From Mesorhizobium sp. (GTDB lineage Bacteria; Pseudomonadota; Alphaproteobacteria; Rhizobiales; Rhizobiaceae): a DNA stretch of 64,000 nt. Under the pieces are notes generated by a model. That model did not search any database. It had not been told where the DNA came from and saw only the letters and a list, made by a program, of their open reading frames with translations. The position numbers and the translations under genes are program-made. The stretch spans positions 1-64,000 of the forward strand of contig SAQE01000008.1 of assembly GCA_004020545.1 (NCBI GenBank). Reading direction: 5' to 3'. Positions 51,221 through 64,000 of this stretch are shown here, one piece after another. How positions within the stretch are numbered: the first letter of the stretch is position 1; every line of letters starts with the position of its first letter.

Positions 51221-52504
51221 ATGAAGATTCCGAAATCCATTCTGCTCGATCCCGAGGCGAACAAGGCCTATGGCGCCTTTGCCGTGGCGGTTTCCGTCCT
51301 CGCCTTTGCCTATTCCAGCAATTTCGGCCAGATCCTGATCCTTGCCTATTACGCGGTCTGGCTGCCGCTGCTCTTTGTCGACTACCGGCGCTTCACCTGG
51401 AAACTCTCGAGCGCCTGGCTGCCGATACTCTTTGCGGCCTATGTCTGCCTGTCGGTCTTCTGGTCGCAGGCGGCCGGCACCAGCGCGCGGGCGGCGGTGC
51501 AATATTCATCGCACATCGTCTGCGCCTATATCGCGGCCCGCACCATCAGCGTCCGTACGCTTGTGCTGGGCTCGCTGATCGGCATCTTCTTCGTCCTGCT
51601 CTACTCACTGAAAGTCAACGCTTACGCGTTGGACATAATCGACGGCACCTTCAATTTCGTCGGCGCTTTCGCTTCCAAGAACCAGGTCGGTTTCTTCTCG
51701 TCGCTCGGCATCTTTTTGTCCCTCGTCTTCCTGATGTTTTATCGGCGCAACTGGCTGAGCTTCGTCTGGACAGCGCCGATCATCCTGATGTCGGCATATA
51801 TGCTGGCGATCTGCCACTCGGCGACATCCGTCGCCTCGCTGCCGGCGGTGCTCGGCATCGTCATCCTGCTCACCATGAGCAGGGTGCTGTCGCGGCGCTA
51901 CCGCCGCGTGCTGTTCGTGGTCGGCGGCGGCGCGCTGGTGGCCGGCGTGGTGGCCGCGCTGAACCTTGGCCTGCTGGACGTCGTGCTCGGCATCTTCGGC
52001 AAGGATTCGACGCTGACCGGCCGCACCTATCTCTGGCAACAGGGTTGGGAGGCGGCGCAGTCGCATCCGCTGCTCGGTTACGGCTATGCCGCCTATTGGG
52101 TGCAGGGCTTTGCCGATCCGGAACGCTTGTGGGCGGAGTTCTACATCACGACCCGCACCGGCTTCCATTTCCACAACACCTATATCGAAACCCTGGTCGA
52201 GATCGGCTTCGTCGGCGTCACCATGCTGGCGCTGATCATCCTGCGCGCCTTCTACGGCCATGTATCGAAGGTTGTGTTCGGCGACTGGAACGCCGATTCG
52301 GTGGTGCTCGCCGGCGTCGTCGGGCTGATGCTGATCCGCTCCTTCTTCGAGGTCGAGATCCTCGGCCCCTACTTCATGGCCTCCTTCATCGTCTATTACG
52401 GCCTGTTCAAGCTGAGCCCGCTGCCGGTTGCGCGGCGACGGCGGGTTGCCATTCCCGTCCAAGATGAAAAGCCGGCCGCCGGCCACATGCCGGCCCCGGT
52501 CTGA
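51221..52504 (+). CDS. O-antigen ligase/polymerase family protein (ExoQ-like)
   Basis: The 427-residue protein has about ten to eleven membrane helices and a large periplasmic loop. It contains the Wzy_C/RfaL-type stretch LTGRTYLWQQGWEAAQSHPLLGYGYAAYW and FHFHNTYIETLVEIGFVG, with the conserved His and Asn. In Sinorhizobium, ExoQ of this type polymerises succinoglycan repeat units. Here it lies convergent with exoZ/exoF/exoY-like genes instead of among them. Ligase activity toward another lipid-linked glycan cannot be excluded. Confidence 0.83.
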   Translation: MKIPKSILLDPEANKAYGAFAVAVSVLAFAYSSNFGQILILAYYAVWLPLLFVDYRRFTWKLSSAWLPILFAAYVCLSVFWSQAAGTSARAAVQYSSHIVCAYIAARTISVRTLVLGSLIGIFFVLLYSLKVNAYALDIIDGTFNFVGAFASKNQVGFFSSLGIFLSLVFLMFYRRNWLSFVWTAPIILMSAYMLAICHSATSVASLPAVLGIVILLTMSRVLSRRYRRVLFVVGGGALVAGVVAALNLGLLDVVLGIFGKDSTLTGRTYLWQQGWEAAQSHPLLGYGYAAYWVQGFADPERLWAEFYITTRTGFHFHNTYIETLVEIGFVGVTMLALIILRAFYGHVSKVVFGDWNADSVVLAGVVGLMLIRSFFEVEILGPYFMASFIVYYGLFKLSPLPVARRRRVAIPVQDEKPAAGHMPAPV

Positions 52505-52510
52505 TCGGCT

Positions 52511-52575
52511 GCAGCAAATTCCAAGGAAAAGTGAGGGGCAGTCTTCCGTTCGGAAAAAGCTGACCCGCTCTAAGG
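52511..52575. repeat. Degenerate inverted remnant of A-type repeat
   Basis: GCAAATTCCAAGGAAAAGTG followed by CTTCCGTTCGGAAAAAGC and GACCCGCTCTAA resembles the reverse complement of the repeat at 9974-10079, with several mismatches. It directly precedes the MITE-like element. Confidence 0.4.
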
Positions 52576-52716
52576 TCTGTTGAGATTCAGGTCAGGCCGA
52601 GCCGAGAAAGGTGGCTTCCGAGAACTGGAGCGGAGCGTACTTGAAGTACGTGAGCACGGGAAGCGGAGGAAGTTGCCGTTCGTAGGCCGGCATCACCTGA
52701 ATATCGACAGACCTTA
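52571..52716. mobile_element. MITE-like 146-bp element with 22-bp terminal inverted repeats
   Basis: TAAGGTCTGTTGAGATTCAG (52571-52592 in full) and ACCTGAATATCGACAGACCT (52695-52716) are imperfect inverted repeats with two mismatches. The inside has a smaller palindrome, GTACTTGAAGTAC. It encodes no protein. The right end contains the stop codon of the acyltransferase gene (52714-52716), so the element sits against the coding region. Confidence 0.6.
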
Positions 52717-53805
52717 GGCTACGGCCCGCCTGCGCTGCATCTGCCGCTGCAGGAAGCGGCGAAGCGGCTCGTCATAGATGCGGGTAGCGATGTCGGCGAT
52801 GACGATGACCGCGACGGCCATCAGGATGCCGAACCACGGATGATGCGCGAACGGGTCGACCGACACCGCCTTGCCGGCGCCGGCGATGATCATCAGCATT
52901 GGCGTGTGGATGATGTAGATCGGGTAGGAAATCCGCCCCAGCCAGCCATAGAAGCCTGCCAGACGCGGCGCGGTCGGTGCCACGGCGCCGGTCACGACCA
53001 TGAGCGGGAAGACGATGACGATAGACGCGAGGTCGTAGGCGACGCGCGCGCCGCCCGCCGGCGCGACGGCGAACACGGCCAACGTGAGCAGGATCGCGGC
53101 CTCGACCCACCAGCCGCGCCGCATGAAGCCGAGATTGCCCTGGTAGCGCGCCATCGACCGGCACAGAAGCACGCCCAGGAAGAAGGAGAACGACACGCGC
53201 GGCAGCCCGCTGACGATGGTCTTGCCGGTCATACCGAAATCGAGCGTTCCGGCGAACACCGAGGCGATGACCAGCAGAACGAGGCTGACGCCGATCAGCG
53301 CCGTCAGCACGCGTCTCGACAGCAGGAAGAAGACGGCGACATAGGCGATGTTGACGATCAGCTCGAAGAACAGCGACCACGAAGCGGGGTTGAGCGGAAA
53401 GATCGTGTGATAGGCCTCGCCGACCAGCGGGATGAAGAACATTCCTGTCGTCAGCTGCATGCCGATCTCTGACAATGGCATGTATTCCGTCGGGATCAGC
53501 CTGTTCTTGACCAGCAGGTGGAAGAAACCGAGCAGCGTGCCGGCGAGGTAGAGCGGATAGAGGCGTATCAGGCGGATGGCCAGGAACGTGCCGAAGCCCA
53601 TGCCGTTCTCGATCTTGCGGTCATAGGCATGCGCGATGACGAAGCCGCTGAGCAGGAAGAAAAGGTCGACCGCGAGATAACTCGACGGCAGCACCTTGCC
53701 GTCGGCAAGGAATGGCGAGAAGTGGTAGAGCATCACGCTGATCGCCGCCACGCCGCGGATGGCGTCGAGGTTGAGGTAGACGTGACGCGGAGCGGCGGGC
53801 TGCAT
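52714..53805 (-). CDS. Acyltransferase family 3 protein (ExoZ-like)
   Basis: The 363-residue membrane protein of the acyltransferase-3 family has LDAIRGVAAISVMLYHF near its start with the key His, the DLFFLLSGFVIAHAYDRK stretch and about ten membrane helices. ExoZ of this type acetylates succinoglycan; Nod factor or O-antigen acyltransferases belong to the same family. It follows exoF- and exoY-like genes on the same strand. The stop codon lies in the terminal repeat of a MITE-like element. Confidence 0.85.
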   Translation of the reverse strand: MQPAAPRHVYLNLDAIRGVAAISVMLYHFSPFLADGKVLPSSYLAVDLFFLLSGFVIAHAYDRKIENGMGFGTFLAIRLIRLYPLYLAGTLLGFFHLLVKNRLIPTEYMPLSEIGMQLTTGMFFIPLVGEAYHTIFPLNPASWSLFFELIVNIAYVAVFFLLSRRVLTALIGVSLVLLVIASVFAGTLDFGMTGKTIVSGLPRVSFSFFLGVLLCRSMARYQGNLGFMRRGWWVEAAILLTLAVFAVAPAGGARVAYDLASIVIVFPLMVVTGAVAPTAPRLAGFYGWLGRISYPIYIIHTPMLMIIAGAGKAVSVDPFAHHPWFGILMAVAVIVIADIATRIYDEPLRRFLQRQMQRRRAVA

Positions 53806-53925
53806 TTTATGCCTTCAAGCGCGGTACAGACAGATCGCTCACCCGCACCTAGGCGCGAACGAGCCTGACGTGTTCCTCCCGCCCCTCGCCATGACCGCGC
53901 CGAAGCGAGGCCCTGGCGGGTTGCG

Positions 53926-55233
53926 CTACTGGCTGGCCGTCGGCGCCAGCTTGACTTTGATCACGTCGCCCGGCAGCACCGGCGTGTCTTCCTTGGCGTC
54001 GACCTCGCTGGTTTTGCCGTTGGCGACGCGCACCAGCGAGTAGAGCAAAGTCGGTTCTCCGCTGCTGCTGGTCATGGCGGCCGCCGTCGCTGGATCCGAC
54101 GCCTGGGCGATCAGGCCCTTCTGCATTGCAGTCCTCAGCGTCGCTTCGTTGAGGTCCGCTTCGGCCTGCTGCCGGCTGGCAGCCAGGTTGGAGTTGAGCG
54201 TGTTGCGGGCGTCGATGGCGTCCTGCTCAGCCTTGCTGATCGACTGCTTGGCGGTGAGGATGGCCGTTTCATAGTCCAGGATCTTGCCTTGCAGATCGGC
54301 CACCGATTGTTTCGAATCGAGCAGCCGCGCATTGGCGACCAGGCCCTTCTGCGCCAGCGGGCCGATGCTGGTGAGCTGCTGCTGCGCGAGATCCACCTGC
54401 TGCTGCTGGTTGGCGATCTTCTTCTGCAGCGATTCGATTTCGCCCTGCAGAACGCCTTTCAGATCGTCGAGCGCGTCCAGCTTCAGCTTCAGCGCCTTCT
54501 GGTCGGCGGTGAGGATCTGCATTTCATCAGAGGCTATCGCCTGCACGCGCGGGTCGCCCTCCACCTCTTTCGGCGCGTCGAAGCTCTCCTTGCCGGCGAG
54601 CTCGGCATCGATGCGGGCACGCTTGATGAGCAGCCGCAGCCGCTGGTCGTCATAGATGTCGAAACTACCCTTGGCAGTGACCAAGTCCTTGCCGAGCTGA
54701 GGGCCGTAGTCAGCACTGTGCCGGATGCCGCCGGCGATGCTGACCGCCTTCAGCACCGTCAGGTCGGGCACATAGGGGAACTGGCCGGGGTTCTGCACCT
54801 CGCCTGAGATGTAGAACGGCCGGAACTGCGCCATTTCCACCGAGGCTTCAGGCTTGTCGGGCAGCGCCAGCTTGCGCTGCAGGGCAAGCCCGATCGCCGC
54901 CGCGATTTCCGACGTCGTCTTGCCGGCCGCTTGCATCTCGCCGACGAACGGCACCGAAAGCATTCCGGCGGGGCCGACCGTATAGTCGCCGTTGAGCGCC
55001 GACCAGTCGCGGAACGTGCCGTCGACCGTCTGCCATTCGGCGACGCGGATGTTGAGTTTGTCCTGCGGGCCGAGACGATAGTCTTCGGCCGCTGCCATCT
55101 GCGGCGTCAGGAGAGACATCATAAGCGCCACAGCCGCGAACCGGCTGGGCGCCCTGGAAAGAAGACTGCAGGCGAAAGACAGTCCGAAGGTGTGTTTTTT
55201 CAAATGAACGTTTCCGATCCGCTTTGGCCCCAT
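53926..55233 (-). CDS. exoF: Polysaccharide export protein, ExoF-like
   Basis: The 435-residue protein has a signal peptide (through TPQMAAA), a polysaccharide export domain at the N-terminus (YRLGPQDKLNIRVAEW, GDYTVGPAGMLSVPFVGEMQAAGKTTSEIAAAI), a SLBB-like FYISGEVQNPGQFPYVPDLTVLKAVSIAGG segment, and a long coiled coil from about residue 225 to 385. This arrangement and size fit ExoF of rhizobia, needed for succinoglycan export. I chose the ATG at 55233; the longer upstream frame lacks a signal peptide and homology. Confidence 0.87.
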   Translation of the reverse strand: MGPKRIGNVHLKKHTFGLSFACSLLSRAPSRFAAVALMMSLLTPQMAAAEDYRLGPQDKLNIRVAEWQTVDGTFRDWSALNGDYTVGPAGMLSVPFVGEMQAAGKTTSEIAAAIGLALQRKLALPDKPEASVEMAQFRPFYISGEVQNPGQFPYVPDLTVLKAVSIAGGIRHSADYGPQLGKDLVTAKGSFDIYDDQRLRLLIKRARIDAELAGKESFDAPKEVEGDPRVQAIASDEMQILTADQKALKLKLDALDDLKGVLQGEIESLQKKIANQQQQVDLAQQQLTSIGPLAQKGLVANARLLDSKQSVADLQGKILDYETAILTAKQSISKAEQDAIDARNTLNSNLAASRQQAEADLNEATLRTAMQKGLIAQASDPATAAAMTSSSGEPTLLYSLVRVANGKTSEVDAKEDTPVLPGDVIKVKLAPTASQ

Positions 55234-55292
55234 CCGCCCGATGAGATCACTGCCGGACGCCTGCCCCGAGTTCGGCGGGGCAGGCCCGTCGG

Positions 55293-55970
55293 TCAATAGC
55301 TGCCGCGCGACATCCACACGGCAGGCACGGTCTTGACGATGATGCGAATGTCCTCGACCATCGACCAGTTCTCGACATAGTGGCGGTCGAAGGCGACGCG
55401 CGTGTCGTAGGACACATCGTTGCGTCCGCTTACCTGCCACAGCCCGGTGAGACCGGGGCGCGACTTCAGATAGTAGACGGCTGCGCTGCCATAGATCTCG
55501 AGCTCGTCACGAACCACTGGGCGCGGGCCGACCAGGCTCATATCGCCCTGCAGGATATTGATGATCTGCGGCAGCTCGTCGAGGCTGAGCTTCCTCAGCA
55601 CCTGGCCGACTCGCGTCACGCGCGGATCGTTCTTCAGCTTGCGCGTCGCGAGCCATTCGGCATTGGCGTCCGGATTGGCGGCCAGATGCGCGGCGAGCAC
55701 CCGCTCGCCGTCCTGGACCATGGTGCGGAACTTGAGACAGGCGAAGATCCTGCCGCCGCGACCGATTCGCTTGTGGCCATAGAAGATCGGGCCGCGGTCG
55801 GAAAGCTTGACCAGCAGCGCGACCATCAGGAAGAGCGGGCTGAGCAGAACCAGACCGGCCAGGGAACCGACGATATCGAAACTGCGTTTGAGCAGGCCAC
55901 CGATGGGGGGTGGAAAATCAATGCCAGCCTGCGAAAAACCCGCACTGGCCGAATTGGCGACGTCCCTCAT
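55293..55970 (-). CDS. exoY: Undecaprenyl-phosphate sugar-1-phosphate transferase, ExoY-like
   Basis: The 225-residue priming glycosyltransferase starts lipid-linked assembly of exopolysaccharide repeat units. It has a membrane segment (FDIVGSLAGLVLLSPLFLMVALLVKL), then the family motifs KFRTM, LRKLSLDELPQIINIL, GDMSLVGPRPVV and RPGLTGLWQVSGRN. It lacks the long N-terminal half of WbaP-type enzymes, as ExoY does. It is 59 bases before exoF and divergent from the exoX-like repressor gene. Confidence 0.9.
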   Translation of the reverse strand: MRDVANSASAGFSQAGIDFPPPIGGLLKRSFDIVGSLAGLVLLSPLFLMVALLVKLSDRGPIFYGHKRIGRGGRIFACLKFRTMVQDGERVLAAHLAANPDANAEWLATRKLKNDPRVTRVGQVLRKLSLDELPQIINILQGDMSLVGPRPVVRDELEIYGSAAVYYLKSRPGLTGLWQVSGRNDVSYDTRVAFDRHYVENWSMVEDIRIIVKTVPAVWMSRGSY

Positions 55971-56575
55971 GCAAAAGCTCCATACGTTGAACGGATGGTT
56001 TACGGCACGATATCAAAAAAATGCTGCAGCGCAACACACAATTTCCCATCCCGATGAAATGTTTACGTCATGAATTGACTAAATAATAAACCTACCCTGC
56101 CCAAATTTTGGTCTTTGTGGCACGTTTATGACAAGGTGAGGGAAAATTAGGGAAATGTAGTGCGCCATTTGGGCCGTTTTTGGACAGCGCATTCTTTGTT
56201 GCAGACGATTGGCGGTTGCAGGCTATCCGAATCACTCGCGCAGGTAAGTTCTTATCGTAAAATACTAATTAATATTTTGAGTTTTACTGTGGTGGGTTTA
56301 GCTATCTTGAATATGTGGCGATGCCGGAGTGTGCGTCGCAACATGGCGGGGTCGATCCTGCAAAACCGTTGGAAATCACCTGCACTCGGCCTTGCTGCAA
56401 AGGTCTCGCCTTAATAGAGTCGCAAACTGTTTCTGTCATAGTTTGGATGGGTCGGAAAGGCCGGAAGCAACCGGTCGAATTGGGCAGCCAGAAATAGCTC
56501 TTTGGCGGAACGGGGAGTTACGCGGGTGGGTAAGTCGCAGCTTTTGCATGCTCGTATCGGTTGAGGCCGGCGATC
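55971..56575. other. 605-base AT-rich spacer between exoY and exoX
   Basis: This divergent spacer is clearly richer in A and T than its surroundings (for example the 56262-56290 area, AAATACTAATTAATATTTTG). It should hold the promoters of exoY and exoX, and AT-rich exo promoters in rhizobia are MucR targets. I do not see a reliable gene; a stretch at 56450-56475 slightly resembles the SRP RNA core but cannot fold as one. Confidence 0.5.
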
Positions 56576-56842
56576 ATGTCTTTGCCAAAATTTATCGTCG
56601 GCATGATGTTCGCACTCGCGATCGTGATCGGCTGGTCCTATTTCGATGGAGCCTCGCTCGGCACCATCATCATGCGTGCCGTCATCTGCGCCGTGATCAT
56701 TCAGGCGGGCTATTTCCTTCTGGTCTATGCCATGATCGTCAGAAGCACGCCGGCGACCGCTGACAAGCCCCGTGAAGCCGAGCGCGGCGTCAAGGTAGCC
56801 GACGGCGAAAAGCTAACCGCCAGGCGCGGCAGCCTCCGCTGA
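56576..56842 (+). CDS. exoX: Exopolysaccharide production repressor, ExoX/SyrA-like
   Basis: The 88-residue protein has two membrane segments (KFIVGMMFALAIVIGWSYF and IMRAVICAVIIQAGYFLLVYAMIV) and a short charged C-terminal tail. Size, topology and position opposite exoY fit ExoX, a small inner-membrane protein that lowers exopolysaccharide output after translation by acting on ExoY. I chose the ATG at 56576, with GAGG upstream. Its 3' end overlaps the convergent lasso exporter gene by 30 bases. Confidence 0.8.
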   Translation: MSLPKFIVGMMFALAIVIGWSYFDGASLGTIIMRAVICAVIIQAGYFLLVYAMIVRSTPATADKPREAERGVKVADGEKLTARRGSLR

Positions 56843-58723
56843 TCTTTCGGCCCGCGCCGGGACCGGCGCATCGCCCGCCGGTGTTGCGGTTTCCGGCTCG
56901 GCTCGCTCGCCGGAGAGCATCCTGGCCAGCCGGCTGCCGGAATTTGCTTTCAGCCGCTGATACTGCCCGACTTCGACGACATGCCCGTTCTCGATGGCCA
57001 CGACCCAGTCGGCGAAGGCGATCATCGACGGTCGGTGCGCGATGGTGAGGATCGTCATCTGGTCGCGCAACCCGTCGATGGATTGGGCGATCAGCGATTG
57101 GTTCTGCCAGTCCAGCGCGCTCGTAGCCTCGTCGAGGATGAGCAGCGAAGGCCTGCGCAGCAGCGCCCGCGCCAGCGCGATGCGCTGGCGTTCCCCGCCC
57201 GAGAGCCGGACGCCGCGGTCGCCCACCACGGTTTCAAGCCGCAGGTCGAGCCGCTCGACGAAGTCGGCCGCATGTGCCTTGCGCAGCGCCGCCCAAAGCT
57301 CCTCATCGCCGGCCCGCGGCGCCGCGAGGCGCAAATTGGCGGCGATCGTGCCGTGCAGCAGGAACACGTCCTGCGGCACGTAAGCCACCTGATCGCGCCA
57401 GGTCCGTCGGTTTCTGGCGGTGATCTCGACGCCGTCCGCCAGGATCATGCCGGAGGTCGGCTCGAGCAGCCCAAGCAGCATGTCGGCGATCGTGCTTTTG
57501 CCCGAGCCGGACGGCCCGATCAGGGCCGTCACCTTGCCGGCGGGAAGGCCGAAGGTGATACCGCTCACCACCGGCCTTCCATCGCCCTCTCCATCGCGGT
57601 CGCCATAGACGAACGAGACGTCGCGAATGTCGAGGCTGGTATCGAGCGAAAGCCTGGTGCCCTGTGCGGTATCGCCCGGCTCCGTCTCGCGCTCCGCATC
57701 GAAGCGGGCCTGCAGGGCCTGCATGGCGGTGTATGCCGGCAGATTGATCAGCACCTGCTGCGCCTGCGTCTGCATATCCATGAAACGCGGCGCGACCCGC
57801 ATGAAGACCAAGAGCAGCACGATGATTTCGGCAAGCGACAGGTGGAAGCGCACCAGCGCGATGTAGATGAACAGGCTGAGGCCGATCACGCTCGCAACCT
57901 GGAACATCGCGGTGCCGATGGTGCTGTTGCGGACATAGGCGACATTGTCCGCCTTCATCCTCTCCAGCGTCGCGCGGAGCTGCGCGAAATAGCTGGCCTC
58001 GACGTTCAGGCTCTTGGCCACCTTGATGCCGCCTAGGAACTCCGAGACCGTGCGGTACTGATCCTGGCGGCTGCCGGTCAGCACGCGGCCGTATGCGGTG
58101 GCGCGGGCACGGAAGGGCTGCAGGGCAACGAGCAAGACCACGCCGACGAGGATGGCGAAGGACGTCATCACCGGCGAGATGAACAGCGACACCACGAGAT
58201 AGCCCGCGAGCAGCAGCGTCGTCTGGGCAAGCATCAGCAGCGAGAAGGCGGCCGCCTGCACCCTGTCGATGTCGCCGGTCAGCGCGTGGTCGAGATCGGA
58301 GCCGCGTATGCGGGTGAAGACCCCCCAGCGCGCCTTGCCGATGCTCTCGAACAGGTTCATGCGCACGCGGTTGACGAAGTCGTAGAGCAGCCGCGCCATA
58401 TAGAGCGACTTGAAGCGGGTGAACATCGCCTGCAGCGCCACCAGTCCGACGAGCAGGCAGAGCACCGTCGCCAGCGACAGCGCCCCGGCGGGCACAAGCC
58501 ATTGCAGGGCGCCCGGCACCCGCACGGCGAAATCCTGATCGGCATTGCCGATCAGATGCAGGAGCGGGATGAGCAGCAGGATCGAAAGGCCCTCGGTCAG
58601 GCTTCCCAGGACGAGGAAGGCCAGCGCCGTCAGCGTGCGTCGCCCGCCGAGATGCGCCATCACGGCGCCGAAGCCGGCGACGTCCCGGAAAACGGAGAGG
58701 CGAAGTTTCGAGGACCAGGCCAT
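56813..58723 (-). CDS. Lasso peptide ABC exporter (D protein)
   Basis: The 636-residue half-transporter fuses an exporter-type membrane domain (about six helices, residues 20-320) to an ATPase domain with Walker A GPSGSGKST, signature LSGGERQR, Walker B LLILDEATSALDW and switch His in LTIAHRPS. There is no N-terminal C39 peptidase, as expected for lasso peptide exporters, where the B protease removes the leader. It is the last gene of the cluster, eight bases after the kinase gene. Its job is to export and give immunity to the mature lasso peptide (inference from context). Confidence 0.85.
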   Translation of the reverse strand: MAWSSKLRLSVFRDVAGFGAVMAHLGGRRTLTALAFLVLGSLTEGLSILLLIPLLHLIGNADQDFAVRVPGALQWLVPAGALSLATVLCLLVGLVALQAMFTRFKSLYMARLLYDFVNRVRMNLFESIGKARWGVFTRIRGSDLDHALTGDIDRVQAAAFSLLMLAQTTLLLAGYLVVSLFISPVMTSFAILVGVVLLVALQPFRARATAYGRVLTGSRQDQYRTVSEFLGGIKVAKSLNVEASYFAQLRATLERMKADNVAYVRNSTIGTAMFQVASVIGLSLFIYIALVRFHLSLAEIIVLLLVFMRVAPRFMDMQTQAQQVLINLPAYTAMQALQARFDAERETEPGDTAQGTRLSLDTSLDIRDVSFVYGDRDGEGDGRPVVSGITFGLPAGKVTALIGPSGSGKSTIADMLLGLLEPTSGMILADGVEITARNRRTWRDQVAYVPQDVFLLHGTIAANLRLAAPRAGDEELWAALRKAHAADFVERLDLRLETVVGDRGVRLSGGERQRIALARALLRRPSLLILDEATSALDWQNQSLIAQSIDGLRDQMTILTIAHRPSMIAFADWVVAIENGHVVEVGQYQRLKANSGSRLARMLSGERAEPETATPAGDAPVPARAERSAEAAAPGG

Positions 58724-58731
58724 GCCTCTGC

Positions 58732-59724
58732 TCACCTTGCCTGCGTGCCGGCCGTCAGGTCGTTCTCGATCAGGGCGACGGCCTCGCCGATCCGCTCCAG
58801 GCCTGCCGGCACTTCGAGCCGGCGGACGCCTATCCTGGCGGCAAGCTGCGCGCACTGGCTGAGATGCGTGGATGCGAAATCGGCAACCAGCGCCTGCCGG
58901 CCGAACCGGGTGACGTAGGAGAACTTGATGATCGCCGGCAGGGCGCCGGCGCCCGGCAGCGGTGTGGTCGCCGCCCGCCCGCCGCGCTGCTCCAGCACAT
59001 AGATCCGGGCCGCCGGCACGGCTTCGCGGGCAAATCCGTCATGCAAACGATGCTGCGCCTTGTCGATCTGCGGATGCACCTGCGGCCGCACCTCCGCTTG
59101 TCCGATCCTGATGGCGTCCGCGGCATCCCTTGCAAGCTTGAGCTGCGGAAAACCGGGCAGGATCATCGGTCGGGAAGGATCGGACAGGTCAAGCGCCACG
59201 ACATCGTCGGTAAGCAGAAGGTGACCGGCGCGGATCATCGCGCCCGCCGTGGTCGACTTGCCGGCGCCCTTGTCGCCCATGAAGATCACGCTTTGGCCAC
59301 CCACGGCGATCGCGCTGGCATGCAGGACCAGCAAGCCGCGCTGATGCAGGGCGAGCGCCAGCACCGGACCCAGGAGCGGGAAGGCCAGCAGCGCATCGTC
59401 GACGCCCGGCGCCGGATCGACATCGACCCTGGAAGCATCGCTGATCAGGAAGGTGCCGACGGCTTGCCAGGACAGGTATTGGCGCGTCGGCTCGAAGCGG
59501 AAGGCGGTCCCGCCTTTCGTGGCGGGCCTGGCAAAGTCGACCGGCCCGACGGCGATCACGATATCGGGTGCCGTGGGCACGGCTGGCTGCAGTTCCGGCA
59601 ACGCCACATCCGAGCCGATCGTCAGGCCATAGGCCTTGTAGAATCGGCGGATGCGCCTGCGCCGGGCTTCGGGTCCAACACCGGTTTCTGGCCCGGTGGC
59701 GGGCGCGGCGGCCGAAGCATTCAT
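58732..59724 (-). CDS. HPr kinase-like kinase of the lasso cluster
   Basis: The 330-residue protein has the C-terminal HPr kinase fold: His135 in VLHASAIAVGGQSVIF, Walker A GDKGAGKST (150-158) and the acidic LLTDDVVALD (Asp173-Asp174). The N-terminal 120 residues (FYKAYGLTIGSDVALPEL) are typical of the kinases found in lasso clusters, not of true HPrK. Such kinases phosphorylate the C-terminal Ser of paeninodin-type precursors, and the precursor here ends in Ser. Its start overlaps the cyclase stop by four bases. Confidence 0.87.
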   Translation of the reverse strand: MNASAAAPATGPETGVGPEARRRRIRRFYKAYGLTIGSDVALPELQPAVPTAPDIVIAVGPVDFARPATKGGTAFRFEPTRQYLSWQAVGTFLISDASRVDVDPAPGVDDALLAFPLLGPVLALALHQRGLLVLHASAIAVGGQSVIFMGDKGAGKSTTAGAMIRAGHLLLTDDVVALDLSDPSRPMILPGFPQLKLARDAADAIRIGQAEVRPQVHPQIDKAQHRLHDGFAREAVPAARIYVLEQRGGRAATTPLPGAGALPAIIKFSYVTRFGRQALVADFASTHLSQCAQLAARIGVRRLEVPAGLERIGEAVALIENDLTAGTQAR

Positions 59725-61643
59725 GCCGGGTTCCCCGCGGGCTGGATCTGCCGCAGCCAGAGTGACAGCGAGATCGAGCGCCAGACATATTGCACATCGA
59801 GCGGCGCGGCCTCGTCCGGCTTCTCGAGCAGCCGCGCATAGGCGGCGTTGACCTCGCCCAGGTTGACGTAGGGCGCGATGCGATCGCCGTCCGACACCAG
59901 CACCGCGTCCATCAGGTCGCGATGGTTGCCGAGCATGCCTTTGACCAGGTTGGCGGTGAAATCGATCTTGTCCCGCCGCCACTGCACCGACGGCGGCAGC
60001 ACGCCTTCCATGGCCCGGCGCAGCACGTGGCGGCCGAAGCCGTTGTGCAGCTTTTCCTCGCCGGGTAGCGCCAGGCAGAATTCGACCAGCGGCTTGTCCC
60101 AGAACGGATAGCGCGGTTCGACGCCGAAATTGGCCGCCGCCTTGTCCAGCACCTCGAAAGCGTGCGGCACCAGCCCGGTCGAGAGCACCCAGCGATGGGT
60201 GAGCGCCTCGCTGGCGCTGACGCCGGAGGGCATGTAGCCGGAACGGTGGAAGCGCTCGACGAGGTCGGTTCGCCGGGCAAGCTCGGCGTTGACCAGGCCG
60301 CCCCAGGCGGGGACGCGTGCCTGCGCGGCTGGCCCCGGCCGCAGCCTGGACAGAAGCCGGTTCATCCGGCTTTTCCACCGGGCGATCCGCCATGCCGGCC
60401 CGTAGATGGTCAGGAACCTGAAATACATGGGCAGCATGCCTTCGCCGTAGATGCCGGAGGCGCCGTGAAGCTCGCGCCACAGCGCCAGCCATCGGCCCGC
60501 GTTGGCGAGCTCATGCAGCAGTCCATGCCCATGCGAAACGACCTCGTCGCCGCCATGGCCGTCGAGCAGCACCTTCACCCCCTTGGCGCCCGCTGTCCGG
60601 TAGATGCTGCGGGTCAGCGACAGGCCAGGCGCCAGGAACGTCCCTTCCTGTTCCTCCAGGATGCGTTCGAACTCTGCGAAAGGCGCGTAGTTGCCGACGG
60701 AAATCATCGTGCCGTCGAGCCGGTGCCGGTCGAGCACCGCGTCGATGAATGGCCTCTCATCCATCGGCGAGCCCTTCTCGAAGACCAGCGAGAAGGTCTT
60801 GAGCCTCGGTCTGCGCTCCGCAGCCGCCTGCAGGCCAGCGACGCCGGCGATCGAGGACGAATCGAGGCCGCCGCTCAGCATCGCGCCAATGGCAGGGGTG
60901 CCGCGCATCCGGTTCCGCACCGACTGTGAGAAGAGATGCCTGAATTCCTCAGCCGCATCCGAGCTCGGCGGCCCGGGCGAAGGCTCGATCTGCCAGTAGC
61001 GGCGAAGCGTCACCTGGCTGTCCGTCACCGTCAGGATGTGGCGGGCCGGCAAGCGGAAGATTTCGGCATAGTGGGTCGACTGCGGATCGTCGGGCAGTCC
61101 GGCAAGGAAGCCGGAAATCTGATGCTCGCTGAGGCGCGTGCCGACACCGTCCAGGGCCAGCAGAGGGCCGATCTCCGAGGCAAACGCGAAGCGCCTGGCG
61201 CTCGCGTGGTAATAGAATGGTTTGATGCCGAAATGGTCGCGGGCGCAAAACAGCGCCTGGCGCTCGGCATCCCAGACCGCGAAGGCGAAATCGCCTTGCA
61301 GATAGGTCGGACAGGCATCGCCCCATTTGAGATAAGCGCGCATCAGAAGCGTCTCGTCGGTCGCCGCGCGGTCACCTATGCCGAGCCGCGCCAAAAGCTC
61401 CTCGCGATTGTCCAGCCGGCAATCCGCCGTGATGGCGAGCTTGCCGTTGGCCATCGTCAGCGGGCCGGGACCGTCCTCGCCCGTCGTGTCGAGCCAGGCA
61501 TGGCCGAGCGCCGCGCCTCCATCCGCCCACCACGAGCTGCCGTCGCGCGCGCGGTGGCGCATGCGCGCCAGCATCTGCTGGATGTCGGCGGCCGCGGCAG
61601 GCCTGCCGTCCTGCCTCGACAGAATTCCTGCGACGCCGCTCAT
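59721..61643 (-). CDS. Lasso peptide cyclase (asparagine synthetase-like C protein)
   Basis: The 640-residue protein has an N-terminal glutaminase-like domain and a C-terminal asparagine synthetase domain with the ATP-pyrophosphatase loop LSGGLDSSS near residues 256-264. It begins MSGVAG, so the Cys2 required for glutaminase activity is absent, as in lasso cyclases, which do not need ammonia. It should adenylate the side chain of core Asp9 and close the macrolactam with the N-terminal Gly amine. It lies three bases after the B2 gene and overlaps the kinase start. Confidence 0.9.
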   Translation of the reverse strand: MSGVAGILSRQDGRPAAAADIQQMLARMRHRARDGSSWWADGGAALGHAWLDTTGEDGPGPLTMANGKLAITADCRLDNREELLARLGIGDRAATDETLLMRAYLKWGDACPTYLQGDFAFAVWDAERQALFCARDHFGIKPFYYHASARRFAFASEIGPLLALDGVGTRLSEHQISGFLAGLPDDPQSTHYAEIFRLPARHILTVTDSQVTLRRYWQIEPSPGPPSSDAAEEFRHLFSQSVRNRMRGTPAIGAMLSGGLDSSSIAGVAGLQAAAERRPRLKTFSLVFEKGSPMDERPFIDAVLDRHRLDGTMISVGNYAPFAEFERILEEQEGTFLAPGLSLTRSIYRTAGAKGVKVLLDGHGGDEVVSHGHGLLHELANAGRWLALWRELHGASGIYGEGMLPMYFRFLTIYGPAWRIARWKSRMNRLLSRLRPGPAAQARVPAWGGLVNAELARRTDLVERFHRSGYMPSGVSASEALTHRWVLSTGLVPHAFEVLDKAAANFGVEPRYPFWDKPLVEFCLALPGEEKLHNGFGRHVLRRAMEGVLPPSVQWRRDKIDFTANLVKGMLGNHRDLMDAVLVSDGDRIAPYVNLGEVNAAYARLLEKPDEAAPLDVQYVWRSISLSLWLRQIQPAGNPA

Positions 61644-61646
61644 CGT

Positions 61647-62063
61647 CTACGGTCCGTGATCGACAAGATGGTTGAACCCGCTGATCGAGCCGCCGAGCAC
61701 GATGTGGTTGCCGCTGACCAGCCAGGCATGCGCCTTGAGCTCGGCGCCGGTGTCGCGCTCGATGCCGATGCGGATCTTGGAGGCATTGCCCTGGCGGGCA
61801 AGCAGATAGTGTCCGGCGAGAGCCTGGGTAAGGCAGCTGGCGCCGGGCACAAACCGTGCGGCAGCGGCGACGCCCCAGGCGATGCGCCTGAGTTCGCCCG
61901 TGCTCGCCGCGCCTTTGGCATCAAGCCGCGTCACCAGGCCACGCACATGGTTGTACGAGAAAACGGTCAGTCCCAGCCGTACGGCGCCGACCACTGCAAG
62001 GCAGCGCATCAAGAACAGCATCTCCGCGCCGCTCAGCGAGAGGACCCTAGACCAGTTCCTCAT
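61647..62063 (-). CDS. Lasso peptide leader protease (B2, transglutaminase-like)
   Basis: The 138-residue protein is of the microcin J25-processing B2 type, a transglutaminase-like cysteine protease that removes the leader peptide. The catalytic Cys77 lies in VPGASCLTQALAGHYLLARQ and His112 in ELKAHAWLVSGN; the third, acidic residue cannot be assigned safely. I chose the ATG at 62063, which overlaps the B1 gene by 17 bases; an ATG at 62078 would add five residues. B1 and B2 are separate genes here, not fused as in McjB. Confidence 0.88.
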   Translation of the reverse strand: MRNWSRVLSLSGAEMLFLMRCLAVVGAVRLGLTVFSYNHVRGLVTRLDAKGAASTGELRRIAWGVAAAARFVPGASCLTQALAGHYLLARQGNASKIRIGIERDTGAELKAHAWLVSGNHIVLGGSISGFNHLVDHGP

Positions 62064-62346
62064 GGTGGAGCCTCGCAAGCCCAGCTTCGATCAGCCCCTT
62101 GAGCAGGCCCTCGACATCGGCCTTGCAGCGCCCGGCATCGACATCGTAGCGCGCAAGCATGGCGTTTCTTATGTCGAGGATCGACCGCGGCTCCTGGATA
62201 AGCTCCCAGATGTAGGCACCGACGCCGTTCAGGCTGTAATAGATGTTGGACTTGAGATGGAGCAGCGCCAGTCCGTTGCCGAATTCGCAGGCCACCGCAT
62301 CGTCGGTCGCGACCACGCGGTCGTGGTCAGATGGGTTCCAGTGCAT
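62047..62346 (-). CDS. Lasso peptide RRE protein (B1, PqqD-like)
   Basis: The 99-residue protein has a PqqD-like RiPP recognition element: VVATDDAVACEFGNGLALLHLKSNIYYSLNGVGAYIWELI followed by a helical AMLARYDVDAGRCKADVEGLLKGLIEAGL. Such proteins bind the leader peptide of the precursor and present it to the B2 protease and the cyclase. It starts about 160 bases after the precursor gene, beyond a strong hairpin, and overlaps B2. Confidence 0.9.
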   Translation of the reverse strand: MHWNPSDHDRVVATDDAVACEFGNGLALLHLKSNIYYSLNGVGAYIWELIQEPRSILDIRNAMLARYDVDAGRCKADVEGLLKGLIEAGLARLHHEELV

Positions 62347-62422
62347 CCTAAAACCTCATTGTTGAACGCCACGCGTCTTCAAGCCTGTCCGGATCGGTTG
62401 CCTGCGATCGCCGGAAAAGGAA

Positions 62423-62446
62423 GCCGGGGGAACAGGGTCCCCCGGC
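62423..62446 (-). terminator. Hairpin between lasso precursor and processing genes
   Basis: GCCGGGGGA pairs perfectly with TCCCCCGGC around a 6-base loop. A second, imperfect stem (62461-62470 with 62489-62498) lies just before it on the minus strand. There is no T-tract, so it may be a partial terminator or an mRNA-stabilising structure that leaves more precursor than enzyme transcript. Confidence 0.6.
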
Positions 62447-62504
62447 CCATCTGTTCAAAGGGGCGCCCGGAGCCCCAACTCCGACATGCCGGACGCCCTC
62501 AACC

Positions 62505-62657
62505 TCAAGAGAAGGTAAGCTGGTCGAAAGGCGTGTGCGCGGGAAATGCCGCGTCCAGCGCCGTCGTACCAGCGCCGCCCTGCGTGATCGTTTCGATCGA
62601 GCCGTGAACCGTCAGGCTGGGGGCCTCGTACTCCTGCTTCTCAACATTCTGTTCCAT
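62505..62657 (-). CDS. Lasso peptide precursor (A)
   Basis: The 50-codon gene has GGAGAG six bases before its ATG. The leader (residues 1-26) has the lasso leader pattern Y10-x2-P13-x-L15-x3-G19 and Thr25 at position -2. The core (27-50) begins GGAGTTALD: Gly27 and Asp35 would form a nine-residue macrolactam. The 15-residue tail has two Phe and one His and ends TFS, giving a C-terminal Ser for the kinase in the cluster. Ring pattern and end resemble paeninodin as I recall it. The gene is short enough to be missed by standard gene callers. Confidence 0.9.
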   Translation of the reverse strand: MEQNVEKQEYEAPSLTVHGSIETITQGGAGTTALDAAFPAHTPFDQLTFS

Positions 62658-62726
62658 TCTACTCTCCAATTAAGACTGGAAGCGGCTTCAGAATGCCGCC
62701 AGCATATTGCTATGCTGCGTTGCAAT

Positions 62727-62741
62727 TGCTGCATGGCAGCA
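62727..62741. promoter_or_regulatory. Inverted repeat upstream of lasso precursor gene
   Basis: TGCTGC-ATG-GCAGCA is a perfect palindrome about 70 bases upstream of the precursor start. A wider ATGCTGC/GCAGCAT pair (62712-62718 with 62736-62742) overlaps it. It may be a regulator-binding site. No regulator gene belongs to the visible cluster. Confidence 0.35.
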
Positions 62742-63120
62742 TTTATGAGTCAAGCCTGATTTACCAGGCATTAATCAATTCTTGGTTGTGCCTGCCGTCA
62801 TCGATGATGAAGTCGCGGACGTTTCCATTTTGGGCAGACGTGGTCCGGCGGTGTAGCGCCGGATTTTGCCGTTTAAGTAAGTATATGAAATTATTGTGAT
62901 AATTTGAAAGACTCAAATACCTAGCTTACGATCGTGAGGAAGGATGCTGCAGAAAATAGCGCCTGCCAGGCCGCACCGCCGCAGTCCGCGCCGTCTTCAA
63001 AAGTGATCGGAAAGCCGGCGAATCTGAACGCGGAGGTTGCAGAGGCCAGGCTGCCTCGGAGCGCGCTGGATGGCCGTCCAGATTTTTGGCGATGCTTTTC
63101 TTCGCAGTTGCGGTATAAAC

Positions 63121-63139
63121 ACCGCCGCGGGCGGTTTTT
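63121..63139 (+). terminator. Terminator-like hairpin in the leader of the nucleotidyltransferase gene
   Basis: ACCGCC-GCG-GGCGGT is followed by TTTT and lies only 20 bases before the ATG at 63159. As an intrinsic terminator in front of a gene, it could reduce read-through into it or act as an attenuator. The stem is short, so activity is uncertain. Confidence 0.4.
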
Positions 63140-63158
63140 GCGGAGAACGACATCGGGC

Positions 63159-64000
63159 ATGGCCGTGCAGGATGCTTCTTACGACAGGCTGCGTGCGGCC
63201 GGCTGCGCCGACGAAGTCGCCTATGTGCAGGCCTGTCTGCGGCTGTTCTTCAATCCGGCTGCGAGTGCCGCCGGTCATGGCGACATGCCGGCTCCGGCAA
63301 TCTCCGCATCCAACGTCGCCGACATTGCGAGACTGAACAAGGTCGCGGTCTTCCTGCTCAAAGCTCTCTCACGCGGGGCGGCTGGCGCCGCGCCTGCCGA
63401 GTTGCTGGCATGGCTCGATGGTTATCGCCGGCGCACCATGTCGATGAACGCCGCCTGCATCGGCGATTCGATCGCCATCCATAGGGTGCTGCGGGGCAAC
63501 CAGATCGATTTCGTCTTCCTGAAGGGGCCGCTGCAGCAGCAATTGCTCTATGGCGATCATTTCATGAAGCCGTCCGGCGACGTCGACATCCTGGTTTCGC
63601 CGTCCGGTTTCACCGCCGCCCGCGAGGCCCTGCGCTCGGTCGGCTACGAGGTCGCCGGCAAGTCGCGCTCGGTCTGGTGGGTGCGCTTCCTCGGCGAGCA
63701 GCACATGGTCCGCGACGACGGCGTGCGGGCTGCCACGGTCGATCTCCACTACCGGCTGCAGCAGCCGGGCTCGCCGAGCCCGCGCGACATCGACGGCTTC
63801 CTGCGCCGCAAGCGTCAGGTCGAGATTGCCGGAACCGGCATGCCTTTGATTTCGGCGTCCGACATGTTGCTCTTGTCCTGCATCAGCGTGGCCAAGGCCT
63901 TCTTCAACCGCGAGCCTTGCGCCGGCTATGTCTGCGACGTCAGAGCCGCGGCCAGCCGGCTGAGCGAAGCCGAACAGCAGAAGGTGCTTGACCACGCCGC
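63159..64000 (+). CDS. Nucleotidyltransferase family protein (partial, runs off the end)
   Basis: At least 280 codons are open from the ATG at 63159 to the window end. The protein fits the NTP_transf_5 type of nucleotidyltransferases: FVFLKGPLQQQLLYGDHFMK then SGDVDILVSPSGFTAAREAL, where the Asp pair in DVDILV is the probable metal site, then VDLHYRL. Genes of this type accompany kinase-containing lasso clusters, and it is divergent from the precursor gene, so it is probably part of the cluster. Its reaction is unknown; addition of a nucleotide to the phosphopeptide or control of the kinase is speculation. Confidence 0.75.
   Translation, partial: MAVQDASYDRLRAAGCADEVAYVQACLRLFFNPAASAAGHGDMPAPAISASNVADIARLNKVAVFLLKALSRGAAGAAPAELLAWLDGYRRRTMSMNAACIGDSIAIHRVLRGNQIDFVFLKGPLQQQLLYGDHFMKPSGDVDILVSPSGFTAAREALRSVGYEVAGKSRSVWWVRFLGEQHMVRDDGVRAATVDLHYRLQQPGSPSPRDIDGFLRRKRQVEIAGTGMPLISASDMLLLSCISVAKAFFNREPCAGYVCDVRAAASRLSEAEQQKVLDHA

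Follow-up and report, generated by a model that had tools for sequence, protein, structure and literature searches.

The 64,000-nucleotide stretch of DNA analysed here, called the window below, is the start of contig SAQE01000008.1 of a Mesorhizobium sp. (positions 1 to 64,000, forward strand). Near its far end, a short gene on the minus strand reads as the precursor (A) of a lasso peptide. It is followed on that strand by genes for a recognition protein (B1), a leader peptidase (B2), a lasso cyclase (C), a kinase resembling HPr kinase (K) and an ATP-binding cassette (ABC) exporter (D), and a nucleotidyltransferase gene (N) diverges from them. Together these genes very probably form a complete cluster for making a phosphorylated class II lasso peptide, in which K, B2, C, N and D take the roles proposed below. 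A first-pass annotation of the same DNA had put forward the precursor and its ring; it was silent on the kinase, the nucleotidyltransferase and the exopolysaccharide genes nearby.

The precursor gene translates as MEQNVEKQEYEAPSLTVHGSIETITQGGAGTTALDAAFPAHTPFDQLTFS, followed by a stop codon. It starts with ATG, and a Shine-Dalgarno-like GGAG lies 6 nucleotides 5’ of this start. The leader holds YEAPSLTVHG, a motif of the YxxPxLxxxG type, and has Thr at -2 of the junction ITQ/G. Core residues 7 to 9 are A-L-D, where Asp9 is the sole acidic residue, and the core ends in TFS. The translation agrees with the first-pass annotation on the leader motif, Thr at -2, Asp9 and the TFS end. Together with a small residue at position 1 and no Cys, they make up the class II lasso pattern of a YxxPxL leader, Thr at -2 and Asp or Glu at 7 to 9.

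The pattern is rare in the window. A strict form of it (Y..P.L...G, then T.G, then Asp or Glu at ring distance) was applied to stop-to-stop stretches of at least 30 codons on both strands. It matched 1 of 1047 stretches, the precursor gene itself. The precursor also passes NF033521, the NCBIfam model of lasso leaders, with 24.5 bits against a cut-off of 19, and with 32.8 bits it falls 0.2 below the cut-off of 33 of NF033528 (lasso_cyano). A search of its own genome for a second copy returned a single match, itself. What lifts the precursor beyond chance is the presence of B1, B2 and C next to it and its conservation in relatives.

Relatives were found by scanning genome contigs with C. The loci discussed here are the best 79 of the 170 that encode a relative; 73 are close (at least 74% identity) and 6 are distant. 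Records titled Mesorhizobium account for 70 of the 73 close loci. All 73 have A-B1-B2-C-K-D on one strand and in the same order, and 72 have the divergent N; the exception is on a contig that ends there. The features are collected in Table 1.

Table 1. Features of the lasso locus and its surroundings (window coordinates unless stated otherwise).
Feature	Position	Strand	Evidence and remarks
A, lasso precursor, 50 amino acids	62505..62657	-	leader MEQNVEKQEYEAPSLTVHGSIETITQ, core GGAGTTALDAAFPAHTPFDQLTFS; translation, NCBIfam leader model
Two-hairpin element between precursor and B1	62415..62504	-	consensus fold of 22 sequences
B1, PqqD-type recognition element (RRE) of ribosomally synthesised and post-translationally modified peptides (RiPPs)	62047..62346	-	PF05402, E 9e-19
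B2, lasso leader peptidase	61647..62078	-	NF033537, 62.8 bits, cut-off 33; PF13471; start TTG 62078 or ATG 62063
C, lasso cyclase, asparagine-synthase type	59721..61643	-	NF033535 lass_lactam_cya, 761.8 bits, cut-off 525
K, HPr-kinase-like peptide kinase	58732..59724	-	PF07475, E 1.6e-7; start inferred, ATG 59724 overlaps C stop
D, ABC exporter, MsbA/HepA kind	56813..58723	-	PF00005, PF00664; start inferred
N, NTP_transf_5 nucleotidyltransferase, divergent	63159..64000	+	PF14907; start inferred; longest open reading frame from 62934
Exopolysaccharide genes (context, not RiPP cluster)	51221..55970	mixed	Wzy-like polymerase (+), acyltransferase (-), Wza-type export protein (-), sugar transferase (-)
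Second RiPP cluster, outside window	L093:8594-11715, ~88.6-91.7 kb of same contig	mixed	YEKPVL peptide, PqqD RRE, B2 peptidase, HprK-like kinase; NTP_transf_5 on opposite strand

B1, B2 and C adjoin the precursor, which means that the class II lasso gene set is present. The nearest solved relative of B1 is TbiB1 (PDB 5v1u, E 5e-9). In B2, counting from the TTG, Cys82 and His117 are kept in 88 of 88 relatives, and the SGGLDSS motif of C is found in 79 of 79. K resembles the HPr kinase structure PDB 1ko7 (E 4.5e-4), and its residues H151, K172, D189 and D190, numbered in a 346-amino-acid reading from 59772, are conserved in 79 of 79 relatives, among them those of the six distant loci. The best NCBIfam scores of D are against the HepA and MsbA models, both below their own cut-offs. 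N continues past the window to contig position 64316, and its full reading frame matches PF14907 with E 1.3e-34; both Asp of its GDVDIL motif are present in 86 of 86 relatives. No isopeptidase or TonB receptor gene was recognised among the neighbours that were family-scanned or read as translations, and no dedicated search for these was made.

The precursor itself was compared in the 73 close loci and 9 further genome loci, 82 in all, or 83 rows with the window. These 82 loci mix two collections and could include a genome more than once, which makes it safer to count distinct sequences; a single row contains an unread residue (X). Among the 83 rows there are 39 different precursors with 26 different cores, and the precursor is intact in all 82 loci. 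Within the 39 distinct precursors of the genus, Gly1, Asp9, Phe12-Pro-Ala, Thr16-Pro and Thr22-Phe-Ser24 are invariant; the C-terminal Ser and the leader Tyr are each there in 39 of 39. The uncorrected ratio of non-synonymous to synonymous changes (pN/pS) is 0.04 for the leader, 0.26 for the core and 0.14 for the whole precursor. The core is under purifying selection.

The lasso precursor proposed by the first-pass annotation is thus upheld by the adjoining B1, B2 and C, by the NF033521 score and by conservation in relatives. The Gly1-Asp9 ring stands as the best prediction, with both residues kept in every distinct precursor.

At the level of genomes, 103 of the 146 from this genus carry the precursor. 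The cyclase is also found in 103, and the two sets are identical. An identical 50-amino-acid precursor is present in one of these 103. In a sample of 297 genomes from the family Rhizobiaceae, the cyclase (E up to 1e-80) was found in 9, of which 5 belong to this genus.

The peptide had been called likely new, and this holds in part. Five fragments of Mesorhizobium leaders and cores are not in print in the open-licence PubMed Central literature, and of the few papers there that matched lasso peptides together with Mesorhizobium or rhizobia, none names both in its title. Within that literature the peptide, core included, stands as uncharacterised. It is not an isolated, one-off novelty, because more than two thirds of the genus genomes carry a precursor and the commonest genus variant passes NF033528 (38.9 bits, cut-off 33).

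The history of the cluster was looked at using an rpoB tree of 80 genomes. This tree contains 40 of the 103 positive genomes, hand-picked for spread, and 40 of the 43 negative genomes; the other three gave no rpoB match and were dropped. Presence and absence change 5 times on this tree, against a mean of 27 after shuffling. Cyclase and rpoB distances correlate with r = 0.74 over 38 of the 40 positive genomes, and 0 of 5000 permutations scored as high; G051 and G078, in which the cyclase is in pieces, were left out. The few label changes and the correlated distances make the cluster look mostly vertically inherited, with a few losses or gains. For the paeninodins of Bacilli a patchy history is reported (PMC13381572), whereas the Mesorhizobium cluster is mostly vertical and genus-wide.

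A plasmid origin was considered and not shown; the best nucleotide match in a plasmid collection covers 19% of a 7.2 kb query. Four close relatives (L005, L023, L041 and L065) are on 6-8 Mb chromosome or complete-sequence records.

How the genes would work together can be proposed by analogy to characterised relatives. B1 would bind the YxxPxL leader and present the precursor. K would then (poly)phosphorylate Ser24 of the bound precursor, before maturation. B2 would cut after Gln(-1), and C would activate the side chain of Asp9 and join it to the amine of Gly1 around the tail. The predicted product has a nine-residue ring and a threaded loop and tail of 15 residues. N may add a further group, a sugar or a nucleotide, to the phosphoserine, and D would export the result.

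These roles have precedents. PadeK, ThcoK and SyanK are reported to phosphorylate Ser, the Syan and Thco systems giving a (poly)phosphorylated C-terminal Ser, and PsmN to put a hexose on the phosphoserine of pseudomycoidin (PMC9266682). A kinase and a nucleotidyltransferase are described as the tailoring set of paeninodin-like and pseudomycoidin clusters (PMC9266682; PMC13381572). The presence of both genes therefore points to a phosphorylated lasso peptide like paeninodin, SyanA and pseudomycoidin, with phosphorylation predicted at Ser24.

Several observations weigh against this. The product itself has not been seen. The match of K to PF07475, at 31.4 bits, is slightly below the cut-off of 33.3, and the Asp of the B2 catalytic triad was not located. 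BsfK is reported to phosphorylate Ser3 and not the C-terminal Ser (PMC10368454), and here too the site could be other than Ser24. Outside the genus, the precursors of relatives with a kinase do not always end in Ser: the only candidate found in locus L078 ends in Leu, and one of two from Sulfitobacter in Pro. The cyclase of G051 and G078 matched only as two pieces although the precursor is kept, which suggests that the gene may be broken there. Finally, 43 of the 146 genus genomes live without the precursor.

Of the known systems, SyanA/SyanK from Sphingobium yanoikuyae and ThcoA/ThcoK are alike in having a kinase-bearing lasso cluster, and the Syan host is also a proteobacterium. They differ in that the Mesorhizobium cluster is flanked by a divergent NTP_transf_5 gene and exopolysaccharide genes. 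A Sphingomonas lasso cluster is described with an isopeptidase and a TonB receptor, and that description makes no mention of a kinase (PMC11006600).

The ring had also been likened to that of paeninodin (PadeA/PadeK, Bacillota). In chemistry the link to paeninodin is apt, since an HPr-kinase-like gene and a C-terminal Ser are shared; the nucleotidyltransferase and a capsule or polysaccharide neighbourhood are common to both as well (PMC9266682, PMC13381572). The leader tells a different story. Trp is reported as nearly invariant in the paeninodin-like leaders of Bacillota (PMC13381572), and here the WxxP motif is absent and the leader reads YEAP. The NCBIfam matches include no paeninodin model. 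Because of the Tyr in the leader and the match of the cyclase to NF033535, the precursor is by its leader not of the Bacillota paeninodin type. Pseudomycoidin (PsmA/PsmK/PsmN) shares the kinase and the nucleotidyltransferase, where N and PsmN are likened by predicted function; its host is a Bacillus, and in the Mesorhizobium cluster the N gene is divergent.

Exopolysaccharide genes border the cluster. The sugar transferase (PF02397, E 2e-64) and the Wza-type export protein (PF02563, E 3e-16) are named by family, the polymerase and the acyltransferase from their translations only. In the 73 close loci, the sugar transferase and the export protein are each found in 72 and the polymerase in 67; the one locus without the sugar transferase sits where its contig breaks off. 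Only 38 have the acyltransferase, so part of the setting is variable.

A second RiPP cluster lies 26 kb from the lasso cluster in this genome. No cyclase was seen among the open reading frames listed there, and with C as query the genome gave a single match at E up to 1e-60, the cyclase of the lasso cluster. The second-cluster B2 is found in 97 of the 146 genus genomes. Both clusters are present in 92, the lasso precursor alone in 11 and the second B2 alone in 5. A single contig holds both in 81 of the 92, separated by 12.4-32.3 kb (median 25.7 kb), and the remaining 11 have them on separate contigs. A plain test finds the association strong, but its result is inflated by shared ancestry. A YEKP peptide lies 5’ of the second-cluster B2 in 10 of 30 loci, or in 5 of 30 under a stricter pattern; the remaining loci may use another start, place or peptide. 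In genomes G002, G003 and G144 the match to this B2 holds one in-frame TGA.

This second cluster resembles the linear polyphosphorylated peptides (LPPs) of Bacilli: it has an RRE, an HprK-like kinase and an NTP transferase, no cyclase was found, and it is near a lasso cluster and polysaccharide genes. A 2026 paper reports pairs of lasso and linear phosphopeptides in Bacilli. The Mesorhizobium cluster differs from the LPPs in its B2-type cysteine peptidase and its leader motif YEKPVL..KREKL, and the host here belongs to the Pseudomonadota, whereas LPPs are called restricted to Bacillota in PMC13381572.

As to function, it is quite possible, if a little short of an even chance, that the lasso peptide is a signal or surface modifier: a phospho- or glyco-lasso peptide that is exported with, attached to, or regulates exopolysaccharide. 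Polysaccharide genes flank the cluster on both sides in the window and in L090, and the lasso loci on Paracoccus and Sulfitobacter plasmids are likewise flanked by polysaccharide or glycosyltransferase genes. A link between lasso peptides and polysaccharide is reported for Bacilli (PMC13381572), and N is a predicted nucleotidyltransferase like the hexose-adding PsmN (PMC9266682). Shared regulation or a permissive insertion region could give the same neighbourhood, however, and the variable presence of the acyltransferase also speaks against this reading.

It is unlikely, though far from negligible, that the peptide is an antibiotic or bacteriocin exported by D against competitors, in which case its exopolysaccharide neighbours would be there by accident. 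Among lasso peptides whose activity has been assayed, many act against microbes, the cluster encodes an ABC exporter, and the 43 genus genomes without a precursor are possible targets. The strong conservation of the core argues otherwise (26 distinct cores in 83 rows, invariant F12-P-A and T22-F-S, pN/pS 0.26), as do the mostly vertical history, unlike that of the patchy Bacilli paeninodins (PMC13381572), and the sugar transferase beside nearly every close locus.

Very improbable is a product that stays a linear phosphopeptide while C does something else. The cyclase-less cluster nearby would fit this, but the score of C is well above what the lasso cyclase model requires (761.8 against 525), neither Gly1 nor Asp9 varies, and precursor and C occur in the same genomes. 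That the precursor, short as its gene is, is a chance reading frame or dead remnant has next to no probability and is ruled out by its conservation across relatives: it is intact at 50 amino acids in 82 of 82 loci, has a whole-precursor pN/pS of 0.14, and is the one strict motif match in the window.

That the precursor is so conserved favours a steady, housekeeping-like role for the peptide, and its genomic surroundings point towards the cell surface. A weak case can be made that its conserved task lies there or has to do with exopolysaccharide, and not with fast-evolving antibiotic warfare.

A more specific proposal is tentative, and doubtful as a whole: an old, mostly vertical phospho-lasso cluster of Mesorhizobium, located at an exopolysaccharide locus, paired there with a phospho-RiPP cluster that lacks a cyclase and lies 12-32 kb off, and serving polysaccharide assembly, biofilm or symbiosis. 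If true, this would give phosphorylated lasso peptides a conserved non-antibiotic role. The partner without a cyclase would then represent a new kind of linear phosphopeptide, processed by a B2 and occurring outside Bacillota. One orthologous core under purifying selection across the genus, together with close cluster-free relatives, makes for a clean genetic system. In it, roles in exopolysaccharide, biofilm and legume symbiosis can be tested; the patchy clusters of Bacilli offer no such system. As a new compound alone the peptide would be routine; this kind of cluster is already known. It is the genus-wide conservation and the pairing with a cyclase-less RiPP cluster that make it worth following.

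Precursors with an LTFS tail are also found on plasmids, in Nostoc (GLKDGSALDKDFPTGTPRGKLTFS) and Paracoccus (GNSRGSALDNTFQAGTPVSQLTFS), with core starts assigned by us. Both share the pattern ALDxxFxxGTPxxxLTFS with the Mesorhizobium cores, and they score 28.7 (Nostoc) and 16.3 (Paracoccus) against NF033528, where the cut-off is 33. The Paracoccus plasmid keeps the A-B1-B2-C-K-D order, beside polysaccharide genes. On the Nostoc plasmid (L247) the precursor is annotated as hypothetical; no lasso enzymes are annotated within 7 kb, and B1, B2, C, K, D and N are unmatched there. The Sulfitobacter indolifex plasmid (L248) has a kinase-bearing lasso locus with two precursor-like reading frames; the last residue is Pro in one and Ser in the other.

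The gap between the precursor and B1 holds two hairpins. A terminator scan of 61900-63300 called none on the minus strand between A and B1, and Rfam gave no family at the gathering threshold in 55000-64000. Because no terminator was called, the hairpins are described here only as a conserved element; perhaps it sets the ratio of precursor to enzyme transcript. The covariation term of its fold is small, at -0.5 kcal/mol, and the window’s own fold has a z-score of only -1.0. The consensus has 13 pairs in the 22 sequences, and for 7 of these at least one sequence has both partners changed.
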